Positions 8,594 to 45,043 of a stretch of 46,187 bases of DNA are shown piece after piece. Location: the IMG/VR virus record IMGVR_UViG_3300028597_000002, positions 1 through 46,187 of that record; one strand, 5' to 3'. Within the stretch, counting starts at the first letter, position 1, and the number at the start of each line of letters is the position of its first letter. The notes beneath the pieces were generated by a model that saw only the letters and a program-made list of their open reading frames with translations, was not told the origin of the DNA and did not search any database. Source of the stretch: a virus. A program made the position numbers and the translations under genes.

Positions 8594-8722
8594 TTATTTC
8601 TGGAATACCCATCCCAGCACGCCCCCTACCAGGAGTGAGCCGACCATGCCAGCGACCCACCAAATCACTTTCTGCTGGCCAGCTTTGATTTCCCGAATGT
8701 CATTCTTTACTTCCGTCAACAT
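8594..8722 (-). CDS. Small holin-like membrane protein, 42 aa or longer
   Basis: From ATG at 8722 the protein has a charged helix (LTEVKNDIREIKAGQQK), then one hydrophobic span (VIWWVAGMVGSLLVGGVLGW). This is the XhlA-like layout of holin-associated proteins. The frame stays open upstream, and the only strong ribosome site (AAAAAGGTGG) sits just before an in-frame ATT at 8762-8764, which would give 56 residues. Position directly after the transglycosylase gene fits a role in lysis or DNA ejection. Confidence 0.55.
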   Translation of the reverse strand: MLTEVKNDIREIKAGQQKVIWWVAGMVGSLLVGGVLGWVFQK

Positions 8723-9358: not shown

Positions 9359-10195
9359 CTAGTAAGGTCGCAGCACCAACATTGGAGCGCCGTTGCTGTT
9401 TGTGAGATTCGACTGAATTACGCCAAGTCGAGTATTTGCGGCGTGAACAATTTTCCCATTGCCGACGTAAATGCCAACATGTTCAGGTCCGCGAGAACCG
9501 GGCCTATAAAAGACAAGGTCGCCGGGACGAATCTGGCTGACTGGAACTTGTTTGCCGCGCTTTGCCTGTTCGTAAGTTGTACGGGGAACAGAGATTCCCA
9601 TTTGCCTGTAAAGCTGCTGGACTAGACCAGAACAATCTACGCCATTGCTGAGGCTATTTCCACCCCATACGTAAGGCGTTTTATTTCTCGCGACCTGCAT
9701 TGCTTTAGCGGCAATTTGAGCGCCAATGTTCCCGGAAGCTGCGCCAGGAATGTCAGTAGCTGAACTTCCCTCGTAGCTTCCAAAGCCGTAGCTGCCAATG
9801 TTTTGCATGTTGACAGCATTTTGATACGCTCTTTTAGCTTCCGCCGTTTGTGTAGCTAGGTCACCGCGTCGACTGATTCCCTTGAGAACCGTTTTCCCGG
9901 CGTCCCCAAAGTTTCCGAGATTGAGTTCAGGTTTCCCGAATTCATCAAACTTCAGGCCAGCCGACTTGTTGACTAGATCAGTCGCAAGGCGATTTGTTCC
10001 CTGCTGTCGCAGGGCGCCATAAATTGAAGCGCCAGTTTCTTTTCTGGTGCCCAACTTGTCCAGCACGCTTTGACCAATGCTGTCAGTGGTTTCCCCCTGC
10101 TGCATAATGGTCGGCATATAGTCGTAACCGACGCCTTTTAGGGACGACTTTCCGATGCCCAGTTTGTTTTTGAATTGCATGAAGGGCGTTGCCAT
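9359..10195 (-). CDS. NlpC/P60 cysteine peptidase, virion-associated, 278 aa
   Basis: ATG at 10195 follows GGAGGTGA. The N-terminal 155 residues are helical and probably dock in the virion. The C-terminal domain has the NlpC/P60 triad: Cys188 in GVDCSGLV, His239 in EHVGIYVG and a third polar His251 in KIVHA. The family cleaves gamma-D-Glu-diamino acid bonds in peptidoglycan. Together with the neighbouring transglycosylase it would cut both glycan and peptide during infection. The overlap with the 66-aa gene covers its first codons. Confidence 0.88.
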   Translation of the reverse strand: MATPFMQFKNKLGIGKSSLKGVGYDYMPTIMQQGETTDSIGQSVLDKLGTRKETGASIYGALRQQGTNRLATDLVNKSAGLKFDEFGKPELNLGNFGDAGKTVLKGISRRGDLATQTAEAKRAYQNAVNMQNIGSYGFGSYEGSSATDIPGAASGNIGAQIAAKAMQVARNKTPYVWGGNSLSNGVDCSGLVQQLYRQMGISVPRTTYEQAKRGKQVPVSQIRPGDLVFYRPGSRGPEHVGIYVGNGKIVHAANTRLGVIQSNLTNSNGAPMLVLRPY

Positions 10196-40869: not shown

Positions 40870-41028
40870 ATGGCAAGCGAGCAAGAAAAAGAAATCCAGG
40901 AGACAGGCGAGAAGCTTTTCGCCCAGGGTTACCGCCTTGGGTGCGAAGATAAAAAGTCTGACGGCGATCGCCCCATCCACCCCTCTTGCATTAACCCAAG
41001 TGGCGAATGTGGATGCGGCAAGGGTTAA
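40870..41028 (+). CDS. Cys-containing small protein, 52 aa
   Basis: ATG at 40870. Helical acidic start (EQEKEIQETGEKLFAQGY), then LGCEDKK and a Cys/Gly end (SCINPSGECGCGKG). Possible metal site. Upstream 121 bases hold no convincing gene. Followed by a hairpin. Confidence 0.6.
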   Translation: MASEQEKEIQETGEKLFAQGYRLGCEDKKSDGDRPIHPSCINPSGECGCGKG

Positions 41029-41038
41029 CTGATCAAAT

Positions 41039-41075
41039 AGTGGGGACCGGATCAATTCGCGGTCCGGTCCCCACT
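41039..41075 (+). terminator. 13-bp hairpin
   Basis: AGTGGGGACCGGA (41039-41051) and TCCGGTCCCCACT (41063-41075) pair perfectly, followed by TTC. Similar in its GTCCCCACTT end to the terminator at 35086-35127. Possible partial terminator. Confidence 0.6.
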
Positions 41076-41091: not shown

Positions 41092-41322
41092 ATGTGCTTC
41101 AAGTGCGAGTACGACGACTTCAAGAAGATTTCGTACCGAGAAGTTCCCATCAAAGCGCTGATTCGTCTCAACGAACTCAAGGACGAAATCAAGTCCAACG
41201 GGGAAAAGGTGACCTCTTCGAAGTGGTACATGCTTCCCACTGGCAACATTATCGCCTACGTCATCTTTGAATACTGGGACGGTCACCAGATTCAGAGTGA
41301 CGCTATTCAGCTCAACGTTTAG
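41092..41322 (+). CDS. Hypothetical protein, 76 aa
   Basis: ATG at 41092 has AGGAGGAAG upstream. A short CxxC (MCFKCEYDD) then a helical part (VPIKALIRLNELKDEIKS) and a beta-rich end (WYMLPTGNIIAYVIFEY). The tRNA-like RNA starts seven bases after its stop. Confidence 0.65.
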   Translation: MCFKCEYDDFKKISYREVPIKALIRLNELKDEIKSNGEKVTSSKWYMLPTGNIIAYVIFEYWDGHQIQSDAIQLNV

Positions 41323-41328
41323 AACAAA

Positions 41329-41435
41329 GGCCCCGCATGCGGTGGCAACAAAGTTGGAAGCTTGTGACGGAAGCGTTCCCCCAGAGCGCTAGTTTCAACT
41401 TTGTTAGCTTTCGGGTTCGACTCCCGACGGGGCCA
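41329..41435 (+). ncRNA. tRNA/tmRNA-like structured RNA, 107 nt
   Basis: A 7-bp acceptor-type stem GGCCCCG (41329-41335)/CGGGGCC (41428-41434) with a discriminator-like A. Immediately inside is a perfect T-arm, TCGGG-TTCGACT-CCCGA (41411-41427), with a canonical TTCRANY loop. Between them, AACAAAGTTG (41347-41356) and CAACTTTGTT (41396-41405) form a 10-bp stem in the place of the anticodon arm; no D-stem is apparent. There is no encoded CCA (CACGA follows) and 107 nt is too long for a tRNA. The layout resembles the tRNA-like domain of tmRNA in miniature. It could also be a decayed tRNA or a substrate mimic for host tRNA enzymes. Confidence 0.6.
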
Positions 41436-41480
41436 CGACTAGCAAAAGCTAGCTCACTCACACACGGAAAGAAACCTCGC

Positions 41481-42071
41481 GTGACAAATCTCACACCTGC
41501 CGAACGTGAACTTCTCGCCATTGTGCAACACGTCGGCGACAACATGAAACCTGTGGCCAGGCTTCTGAAGAAGCTGGACGACAACTTCGGTCGCGAGGCA
41601 GCGAAGAGGCTGACGAATCTTCCGGAGGGAATTTTCGACACGCTGATTCTCGCGATCCAGAAGAACAGCTCCCCCAGGGCGAACCAGAAGCTGAAGACCG
41701 CTCAGGCAATCGAAGACAAGACGGCGAAGAAGATTGCTGTCGCGGAGAGCAAGAGCAAGGGAATCCAGGGAGAAGTTTTCCCCGGAAACTCTGATCTCTT
41801 CGCTGAAGAGTCGACCGGAAATTCCTCGGAGCGACTGGCGATTCATCTCGACGCCAACAGTGACGCCATCAATCGCATCGCCTACGACATCACAAAGGCG
41901 ATCGAGTCGGAACTTTCGTCGGGTGACAAGCTGTGGAGCACCCGTGAAATTGCGGTGCGGTTCGCAACAAACGCGGCGTACGTCTCAAAGATCTACAAGG
42001 TTCTGCGGAGCCACAATTGGATCGAGTACGTCAACCCGGACCTTCCCGGAAAGGGCTACGTGGTCAAGTGA
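41481..42071 (+). CDS. Winged-helix DNA-binding protein, 196 aa
   Basis: GTG at 41481, downstream of the RNA element; an ORF extension to 41337 would read through the tRNA-like stem and is rejected. N-terminal helical domain (AERELLAIVQHVGDNM, LTNLPEGIFDTLILAI), linker, then a C-terminal winged-helix (LWSTREIAVRFATNAAYVSK and VLRSHNWIEYV) resembling GntR/MarR-type readers. Likely a phage regulator; target unknown. Confidence 0.7.
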   Translation: MTNLTPAERELLAIVQHVGDNMKPVARLLKKLDDNFGREAAKRLTNLPEGIFDTLILAIQKNSSPRANQKLKTAQAIEDKTAKKIAVAESKSKGIQGEVFPGNSDLFAEESTGNSSERLAIHLDANSDAINRIAYDITKAIESELSSGDKLWSTREIAVRFATNAAYVSKIYKVLRSHNWIEYVNPDLPGKGYVVK

Positions 42072-42782: not shown

Positions 42783-42920
42783 GAAACATTGCGGGCGCGA
42801 CCTTGACAGGGGATGACAGGCTGGTTTTGCCGTCAGGTTTGGACCGACGAAGGAGGGACGGGCCTGGCGGTAAAGCCTGACAGTCACCCCTGTCAGGGGA
42901 GTGGGGCCCCGCAATGTTTC
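42783..42920. repeat. 138-bp element with long terminal inverted repeats
   Basis: Terminal arms GAAACATTGCGGG (42783-42795) and CCCGCAATGTTTC (42908-42920) are perfect 13-bp inverted repeats. Pairing continues imperfectly inward over most of the element (CTTGACAGGGGATGACAGG against CCTGACAGTCACCCCTGTC; GGTTTTGCCGTCAGG against CCTGGCGGTAAAGCC), leaving a GC-rich loop of about 24 nt. It also holds several TGACAGG/CCTGTCA half-sites and the palindrome CCCCTGTCAGGGG. Candidates: structured leader RNA, replication origin or MITE-like relic. Confidence 0.75.
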
Positions 42921-42943
42921 GTCCACGTGAAAGGAATCAAAGA

Positions 42944-45043
42944 GTGAACCAGAACATTGACATGTCGGAGTTTGAGAAGCAATTCATGGAGGGTCGACTT
43001 TCTCCCTTCATGCCGAACGAGGATTTCAGTCGGCTAGCTTTCCTGAATGACCGCATTCGTTCTATTGAGGAAGTTTCCGAACTTCGCAAGGATGAGATTC
43101 AGTCTCTTACTTGGCGACAGGAAGCAATTCAGAAGGTAATCCGTCGTATCGAAGTTCTTCTGGACAAGTATCGCAAGAAGCGTCAGCCTCTTGACGATGA
43201 AATCAATCGTCTGAAGCGAATCAATCGCGGTGAAGACGCTAAGCGTGAAGCTTATGAGCGTGAGCGTCAGCGGCTCATTCAAGAGTTGATGGCTCAGCGT
43301 AACTTCCTGGAGCAGAAGAATTTCCTGAAGGAGTCGACGGCCAATCTTCCGTGGGCTGTTGGTGTTGACGGAAAGAAGGCGCTTCCTCATCAGCTGGAAG
43401 GTGCCGCACGACTTGTTGCTGCTGAGCGAGCAATTCTCGGTGACAAGCCTGGACTTGGTAAGACTTTGCAGGCAATCATGGTTGTTGACATGTTGCGTGC
43501 ACAGGGAGGGAACAAGGGCCGAAAGGTTCTCATCTTCACTCCCAAGCAAGTTCTCGCCGACTTCCAGCGAGCTTTCGAGAAGTGGACGGACCCGAAGTTT
43601 GTCCACGTCCTGAATCAGACGTCAGTCAAGGGTATCAAGTCGGAACTTCTCGACATGCTGATGCACTTCCCTGAGATGATTGTCATCACGAACTATGAAG
43701 TTTGGCGTAAGGATCAGTCGATCCATGACAAGCTGAAGAAGTGCGCGTTTGACACAATCATCTGTGACGAAGCGCATGTTCTGAAGAACATCAAGTCGAC
43801 TACGGCTAGAAAAGTAAGGGATCTCGTCTACGCCGAGAACCTTTGCAGCAATTGCGGTGGCCGTGACATTCACTCGGTGAAGAGTGAAGTGACTGACAAG
43901 ACTTTGTCCGTCACATGCATGAGCTGCGAAACTCGCCCGTTTGATTTCAGCGACTTCTGTTCAGTCAAGAACTTTTACCCTATGACGGGTACGCCCATTC
44001 TGAACAAGCCGCAGGAATTGTGGCCGCTACTCAACATGATGGACCGAAAGAGCTTCCCGACGGAGAAGAGCTTTCTCGAAGACTACTGCGAGAAGAAGTA
44101 CGACTACGACAATGAGCGTTGGTACTACACTTTCGGCGCGGGTGGTTCGGAACGTCTTCTCAAGAAGTTGGGAATGAGGTACACCGCCCGAACAAGGGAA
44201 AGTGCTGGGGTCATCATGCCGCCCCAGGAAGTCAAGCATCACTGGCTTGAATTTGACCCTGACGAGCACCAGCGGCAGCAAAAGTTCATCGAGAATCTTC
44301 GCCTGAAGGCAAAGATGGTTTTCGCTCCCGACCAGGAAGTGACAACCGACCAGGCACTTCATTGGTACACCCGAATGCGGCAGGCCGCAGTTTGGCCTGA
44401 CGGAATTCAGGTGAAGGGTTGTGCGCATGAGCCCATGTGCAAGGATGAATGGGATCTTCCCAACCCGAAGGCTTGCATCTCTCCGTCAATTGTTTTCCCT
44501 GCACCGGGAACTCCGCCTGTCGGTGAGAGCATTCTCATGGACAAGGCTGAGGAAATCGTTGTAGAAGCTGTAGAAGCTGAACAGCGAATTGTCGTCTTCA
44601 CGCACTTCCGTGCAGCAATTGAGGAACTAGAGCGTCGGTGCATCGGTGCTGGCTTGAGGGTCGGAAAGATTGTTGGCGGAGTGAAGGAAGAACTTCGCCG
44701 GGAATACATCGACGACTTTAACACCGAGTACACAAAGGTGGGTGAGCACAAGTATGACGTGCTCATTTGCCAGTACCAGACAGCACAGGTTGGTCTCAAC
44801 CTGAATGGCGCGCATCAGCTTCTTTGTATTGACCGGGAATGGAATCCTGGAAAGGAAGAGCAGACGCTCGACCGTGTGCGCCGTCTGGATTCTGAACTTT
44901 CCACCATCGTCCACATTCTTCACTGCGCTGGCACGGCGACGGAACTTATCGACGCGCTGAATGAGCAGAAGAAGGCAATGCTGGAAGGTTGGGAAGCTGA
45001 TGTCAGTCTTCTTGAAGCTATGCGAAAGTTCCTGGAGGGGTAA
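42944..45043 (+). CDS. SNF2-family DNA helicase/translocase with inserted zinc ribbon, 699 aa
   Basis: GTG at 42944 follows AAAGGA; ATG at 42914 lies in the inverted repeat and has no such site. Residues 30-130 are a coiled-coil arm. Helicase motifs: PHQLEG (148-153), Walker A GDKPGLGKT (166-174), DEAH (275-278), MTGTP (347-351), then the C-terminal lobe with FTHFRAAIEEL, QVGLNLNGA and EEQTLDRVRRL. An extra four-Cys ribbon (Cys301, 304, 325, 328) is inserted after DEAH. SNF2 proteins translocate on DNA and remodel protein-DNA complexes. Phage forms often aid replication or recombination. Confidence 0.9.
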   Translation: MNQNIDMSEFEKQFMEGRLSPFMPNEDFSRLAFLNDRIRSIEEVSELRKDEIQSLTWRQEAIQKVIRRIEVLLDKYRKKRQPLDDEINRLKRINRGEDAKREAYERERQRLIQELMAQRNFLEQKNFLKESTANLPWAVGVDGKKALPHQLEGAARLVAAERAILGDKPGLGKTLQAIMVVDMLRAQGGNKGRKVLIFTPKQVLADFQRAFEKWTDPKFVHVLNQTSVKGIKSELLDMLMHFPEMIVITNYEVWRKDQSIHDKLKKCAFDTIICDEAHVLKNIKSTTARKVRDLVYAENLCSNCGGRDIHSVKSEVTDKTLSVTCMSCETRPFDFSDFCSVKNFYPMTGTPILNKPQELWPLLNMMDRKSFPTEKSFLEDYCEKKYDYDNERWYYTFGAGGSERLLKKLGMRYTARTRESAGVIMPPQEVKHHWLEFDPDEHQRQQKFIENLRLKAKMVFAPDQEVTTDQALHWYTRMRQAAVWPDGIQVKGCAHEPMCKDEWDLPNPKACISPSIVFPAPGTPPVGESILMDKAEEIVVEAVEAEQRIVVFTHFRAAIEELERRCIGAGLRVGKIVGGVKEELRREYIDDFNTEYTKVGEHKYDVLICQYQTAQVGLNLNGAHQLLCIDREWNPGKEEQTLDRVRRLDSELSTIVHILHCAGTATELIDALNEQKKAMLEGWEADVSLLEAMRKFLEG

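Follow-up and report, generated by a model that had tools for sequence, protein, structure and literature searches.

The window analysed here is the whole 46,187-base stretch of IMG/VR record IMGVR_UViG_3300028597_000002. Its terminal 125 bases are identical at both ends, as in a complete circular assembly, and its proteins include a P22/SU10-type portal, a terminase, an SU10-type capsid protein, an endolysin and an NlpC/P60 tail protein, as well as an exonuclease, AAA ATPases and an SNF2 helicase (42914-45043, + strand). Relatives of the portal occur in distant isolates infecting Arthrobacter, Microbacterium and Cellulosimicrobium. Between two codirectional genes lies an element of ~107 nt (41329-41435, +). 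Its 5' neighbor is a 76-aa ORF (41092-41322, +), which has a relative in G029 and whose stop codon is 6 nt 5' of the acceptor stem of the element; its 3' neighbor is a 196-aa ORF with a GTG start (41481-42071, +), which belongs to no known family and has weak relatives in G001 and G004. The search for relatives through this 196-aa protein gave none. Judging from gene order, the locus probably belongs to an early operon. A frame that stays open across the element (41337-42071) was rejected as coding, since the 196-aa ORF makes up its 3' part and covariation is seen in the RNA.

The scan for promoters and terminators around the element gave nothing above shuffled sequences. A long GC-rich hairpin upstream (gtggggaccgg...ccggtccccac, then CTTT; 41041-41075, +) sits between an ORF ending at 41028 and the one starting at 41092, and it looks like a terminator or attenuator. 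Directly 3' of the element is a small hairpin, CTAGC-AAAA-GCTAG (41439-41452, +), which is present in L003 too. The equivalent early region of L002, a relative without the tRNA-like element, holds a long near-perfect hairpin (GGCCGGACAACCTGG ... CCAGGTTGTCCGGCT; 8661-8703, +). Another structured RNA (42790-42913, +; MFE -82.8 kcal/mol, z = -8.0) ends at the start codon of the helicase gene, with counterparts in L003 (9534-9637, z = -8.5) and, weaker, in L002 (about 9515-9630, z = -2.1). The copies have the closing sequences TTGACRGGGG / CCCCTGTCA in common; the RNA may be a leader conserved at the 5' end of the gene or a hairpin with a regulatory role.

Architecture of the element

The acceptor stem of 7 bp is formed by GGCCCCG (41329-41335, +) and CGGGGCC (41428-41434, +), followed by the discriminator A73 (41435) and a C (41436). 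An 8-nt spacer, CAUGCGGU, replaces the D-arm (41336-41343, +; CATGCGGT in the window) and is identical in five of the seven copies of this type. It is followed by a long arm, P2, with GGCAACAAAGTTG as its 5' strand (41344-41356, +) and CAACTTTGTTAGCT, which carries one bulged A, as its 3' strand (41396-41409, +). The apical part in between (41357-41395, +) varies in sequence and length among phages; in the window it has a CCCCC run, and the predicted fold of the arm includes a second, apical stem. After a one-base linker (41410) comes the T-arm, TCGGG-TTCGACT-CCCGA (41411-41427, +). Sequence and predicted fold thus bear out the acceptor stem and canonical T-arm described in an earlier, sequence-only reading of this DNA, together with the absence of a D-stem and of an encoded CCA; no anticodon loop was found in the element either. 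The perfect 10-bp stem of that reading is present (AACAAAGTTG, 41347-41356 / CAACTTTGTT, 41396-41405), but it is the core of a longer helix, which extends outward by GGC/GCT past the bulged A to a total of 13 bp. The predicted fold has an MFE of -48.1 kcal/mol (z = -3.58), and none of 200 shuffled sequences folded as well.

The architecture is not that of a standard tRNA. ARAGORN reported neither a tRNA nor a tmRNA for the element, and the Rfam scan gave nothing at gathering level and no normal tRNA fold. The tRNA family RF00005 covers exactly 41329-41435, with 19.0 bits against a cut-off of 29, and the alignment puts 42 inserted nt into the anticodon arm and shortens the D region. In 600 order-1 Markov genomes of window size, a Watson-Crick 7-bp acceptor with a 5-bp T-arm turned up once, while the same strict pair with a stem of at least 10 bp occurred in none of the 600 and exactly once in the window. 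With G-U pairs allowed, the acceptor and T-arm descriptor is matched ~0.3 times per genome and is not rare by itself, so the proof rests on homologues.

A conserved, covarying RNA in related phages

Relatives were found through contigs encoding homologues of the SNF2 helicase, followed by a descriptor for the architecture of the element, which recovered it upstream of the helicase gene in L003 and L004. The fourth copy, in L060, came from a pattern scan of viral contigs; most other matches were rejected as ordinary class II tRNAs. A covariance model, R1, seeded with the window, L003, L004 and L060, added copies from the records G029 and G011. These two, G083 and the paralogues described below lie outside the seed. 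The pattern scan of contigs from bacterial genomes gave one copy, in the assembly of Streptomyces griseosporeus JCM 4766, on a contig of 46,429 bases with 132-base identical ends; the genome matches besides L189 did not have the fold of family members. This form of the element, type A, is present in seven related phages, the window included. In all members the helicase gene is a syntenic anchor 1.1-2.6 kb downstream. The copies of G011 and G084 are identical, and a 26-nt 3' half is identical in three divergent phages.

Three records (G084, G011 and G029) carry a paralogue, type B, alongside type A, with a spacer of ~9 nt (CCUCGGUGG or UCUUGGUGG). Together, the long elements span about 83-113 nt, with spacers of 8-9 nt. 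The RNA at G036:21790-21883, whose acceptor (CCCCCGG/CCGGGGG) is wholly different, looks like a further type B member; it is below threshold and was left out of the counts. In the early regions L204, L205, L206 and L210 (phages G011, G029, G084 and G020), the octamer CCCTGTAG shows 20-50 fold over-representation on either strand and sits in hairpin loops, before ribosome-binding sites and in type B element loops; it is absent from the window.

Covarying homologues, which the sequence-only reading had proposed to look for, provided the strongest evidence. Over 10 distinct long sequences, 13 of the 19 base pairs showed two-sided compensatory changes (39 cells) and 94.6% of cells were paired, in an alignment that was fitted to the model and leans towards structure, and in which several counted copies came from outside the R1 seed. 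All three helices contributed: all seven modelled pairs of the long stem, four of the five T-stem pairs, and pairs 3 and 6 of the acceptor, which was 100% paired. None of 500 shuffles reached the observed values, sliding the partner by one base lowered the pairing to 52-59%, and an earlier count over seven sequences gave the same picture. The AC after the acceptor was present in 10 of 10 long copies.

The S. griseosporeus contig allowed the parts of the element to be compared. Protein identity to the window is 84-90% for its portal, terminase and capsid proteins and ~34-61% for those early neighbor proteins that have a homologue. All 41 scaffold bases (acceptor, spacer, T-arm and AC) are identical, while the long arm and its apex share little and measure 67 nt in the window vs 42 nt in the contig. 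Because the scaffold is identical while the long arm and the early neighbor proteins diverge, the tRNA top half is strongly constrained and the long arm constrained in pairing alone. The data demonstrate that this tRNA-like RNA is conserved, and selected for its structure, in a group of related phages. Its recurrence there, with base changes that compensate each other, makes the family a real one, and these tRNA mimics are apparently undescribed: the open-access literature search returned no description of them, which does not prove that none exists, and no counterpart in a tailed phage; no Rfam family covers the element.

The type A locus is absent from the close relatives G002 and G006, although absence from a record may reflect a fragment; on this distribution the locus is accessory, as would be expected of a gene meeting a variable host factor. 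A DNA similarity search against annotated phages, distant and near, gave no match. Model R2 matched only the phage contig among 395 genomes of the class, and R1 matches near 40 bits in Streptomyces chromosomes were tRNA-Arg or tRNA-Glu where checked. Streptomyces is a tentative host, since that one contig is the sole direct hint and the G+C content of ~51%, in the window as in the contig, is low for Streptomyces.

A second, shorter RNA occurs in related phages. This mini RNA of 51-53 nt, found with models R1 and R3 in four copies (G001:8158-8210, G004:3964-4014, G020:28622-28672 and G002:35513-35563), has no anticodon and consists of a 7-bp acceptor, a D-arm-like hairpin (loop GAAAUUGG in two copies), a short linker and a 4-bp T-arm. 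In G001 and G004 it follows type A after ~200-250 bases; in G002, which is without type A, it precedes the helicase gene by ~1 kb. All four copies have G3.U70 and three have A73 and G2-C71, while the fourth has U73; G4-C69 is not kept. In a three-sequence alignment, pairs 4-69 and 6-67 covary around the constant G3.U70; a score as high as the observed one came from 5 of 500 shuffles, three sequences being few. No mini RNA was found in the window, nor in 393 Streptomyces genomes, a set that held no positive control. The acceptor/T-arm module, together with a spacer or D-loop that contains G, is all that types A and B and the mini RNA have in common, so this module is likely to be the functional part.

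Possible functions

RNase P, the CCA-adding enzyme, EF-Tu and the T-loop enzymes all recognise the acceptor/T-arm part. For RNase P, which gauges the acceptor-T stack, a T-loop-like structure is required while the D-loop seems dispensable (PMC4919913); the element has the acceptor-T stack, the T-loop and A73-C74. Because the shared module fits RNase P recognition, excision from the early mRNA and release of a stable RNA would be expected. We tentatively favor, at somewhat less than even confidence, a reading in which the element is a mimic of the tRNA top half that is excised from an early mRNA and then keeps a host or defence factor occupied in trans. The element would be transcribed with its two codirectional flanking genes, its 5' end would be cut by host RNase P, and host tRNA 3' enzymes would trim the 3' end and add CCA, releasing a stable RNA. 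As there is no anticodon loop, this RNA should be unable to decode. It would instead occupy a factor that recognises the tRNA acceptor or elbow, with RNase P, the CCA-adding enzyme, EF-Tu, a T-loop modifying enzyme or a toxin acting on the acceptor end as candidate partners, and the long arm would be a sequence-free block that keeps the RNA out of decoding. The sequence data establish the structure and the family, whereas we infer the processing and the target. The tRNA mimicry proposed in the sequence-only reading is supported by the covarying homologues, and that interpretation as a whole only in part.

The same features could also serve the mRNA itself, and a pure processing signal is the main rival, although on balance we regard it as unlikely. 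Together with its smaller relatives, the element would then do no more than mark cuts by RNase P and the 3' tRNA enzymes in the polycistronic early mRNA, as mitochondrial tRNAs and the MALAT1 mascRNA do, and the excised RNA would have no job. Its tight intergenic site, 6 nt past a stop codon and between codirectional genes, agrees with this, as does the restriction of the common part to the acceptor/T-arm module; with 24.8 bits against a cut-off of 42.5, mascRNA is also the best, if weak, Rfam match for the Streptomyces copy. Such punctuation would leave unexplained the near-invariant spacer CAUGCGGU and the kept pairing of the long arm. The present evidence does not separate a decoy from a mere processing product, and the lack of an encoded CCA also counts against the decoy reading, as does a host known from a single contig. 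A broader form of the decoy reading, which we consider rather unlikely, would make types A and B and the mini RNA one class of tRNA decoys, with one or two (perhaps more) per phage. They would sequester a host or defence factor whose targets are tRNA acceptor ends or elbows, and the disposable arm would bar both use in translation and cutting by anticodon nucleases.

The kept scaffold and variable arm would also suit a regulatory RNA, in which the top half stabilises the molecule and the loop of the long arm pairs with target mRNAs, as a natural equivalent of the engineered tRNA scaffold. Several apices are C-rich, with CCCCC in the window and in all three type B copies, and engineered RNAs with a hairpin for the anticodon arm are processed and stable in E. 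coli (PMC3753655). That the family has no loop sequence in common speaks against one antisense target for all members. Within its own genome the element has no complement longer than 11 nt, and we consider this role improbable. More doubtful still is an aminoacyl carrier, charged without an anticodon and delivering or sequestering the amino acid outside translation. The mini RNA would carry alanine, given that its G3.U70, A73 and G2-C71 are bacterial alanine determinants (PMC9976931) and that the neighboring pairs covary; the long element could possibly be charged by a synthetase that tolerates the long arm. However, the fourth mini copy has U73 and G4-C69 is not kept, and position 3-70 of the long elements is C3-G70, U3-A70, U3.G70, G3-C70 or A3-U70, so no single acceptor identity is kept there. 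Last, a decayed tRNA gene or an attachment site left by integration, also raised in the sequence-only reading, is strongly disfavored and very improbable despite the phage tRNA-Leu-like acceptor and the tRNA fragments common in prokaryote genomes (PMC9897764), because a covarying 5' half and stem would not be preserved in an att core, all three helices covary, the scaffold is identical in divergent phages, the 24-nt 3' half was in 0 of 100 other Streptomyces genomes and only in the phage contig (with the host inferred from that one contig), and no integrase was found among the subset of window proteins scanned.

The covarying family, with an alanine-type mini RNA in the same region, offers a testable entry to how phages use or block tRNA-handling enzymes. 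Such genes are overlooked by tRNA finders in phage genomes.

Comparison with known tRNA-like RNAs

With tRNAs, including class II tRNA-Leu and the D-armless mitochondrial tRNA-Ser, the element shares the 7-bp acceptor, the 5-bp T-arm with a 7-nt loop containing UUCRA, and the discriminator A. Unlike them, it has no anticodon arm of 5 bp with a 7-nt loop in its fold or in its homologues, its variable long arm is 0-1 nt from the T-arm, and it stays below the cut-off in Rfam and is not seen by ARAGORN. The long elements have the 8-9-nt spacer for a D-arm, while the mini RNA has a reduced one. Mitochondrial tRNAs may also be D-armless and still be processed (PMC7609411). Only 0-1 nt separate the long arm from the T-arm, so it may represent an enlarged class II variable arm and not an anticodon arm. 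The L004 element has the same acceptor as the tRNA-Leu of phage DS1 (GGCCCUG/CAGGGCU+A), and the acceptor and A73 of the element resemble phage tRNA-Leu, from which it may have originated. In other viruses, we observed a class II tRNA-like gene with a very long variable arm, missed by ARAGORN (L062 1495-1605, +; an unrelated viral contig), and tRNA-like genes of 110-111 nt with an extended middle part (L018 9669-9779, L046 1562-1672, L029 5775-5884 counted on the - strand, and L051 3954-4063), which ARAGORN misses where it was run.

The tRNA-like domain of tmRNA has an acceptor, a T-arm, a long helix (P2) in the anticodon-arm position and no D-stem. The element resembles it in all of these, but it shows no tag reading frame or pseudoknots (ARAGORN none, no Rfam tmRNA at cut-off), and the alanine pair G3.U70 is missing from the long element, which has C3-G70 in the window. 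Bacterial Y RNA (YrlA, RF02553) likewise has a tRNA-like module and no decoding role; the element scores 12.5 bits against a cut-off of 69 and ends at its acceptor. A Ro60/Y RNA reading was rejected, with TROVE/Ro60 genes absent in nine of these phages.

MALAT1 mascRNA is a tRNA-like RNA cut out of a longer transcript; it differs from the element in being animal and much smaller, and the Rfam match is far under the cut-off. The pseudo-tRNA tRNAOther of B. cereus is likewise a small tRNA-like RNA with a job outside translation (PMC3399842), but it keeps a Trp anticodon and is chromosomal. In the engineered tRNA scaffold a hairpin likewise replaces the anticodon arm (PMC3753655), although that scaffold is artificial and keeps the D-arm.

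Viral tRNA mimics close the comparison. Plant RNA viruses and tmRNA are well-known examples of tRNA mimicry. The plant-virus tRNA-like structures are likewise viral mimics (PMC9976931); they form the 3' ends of RNA genomes, whereas the element is a gene in the interior of a tailed DNA phage genome.
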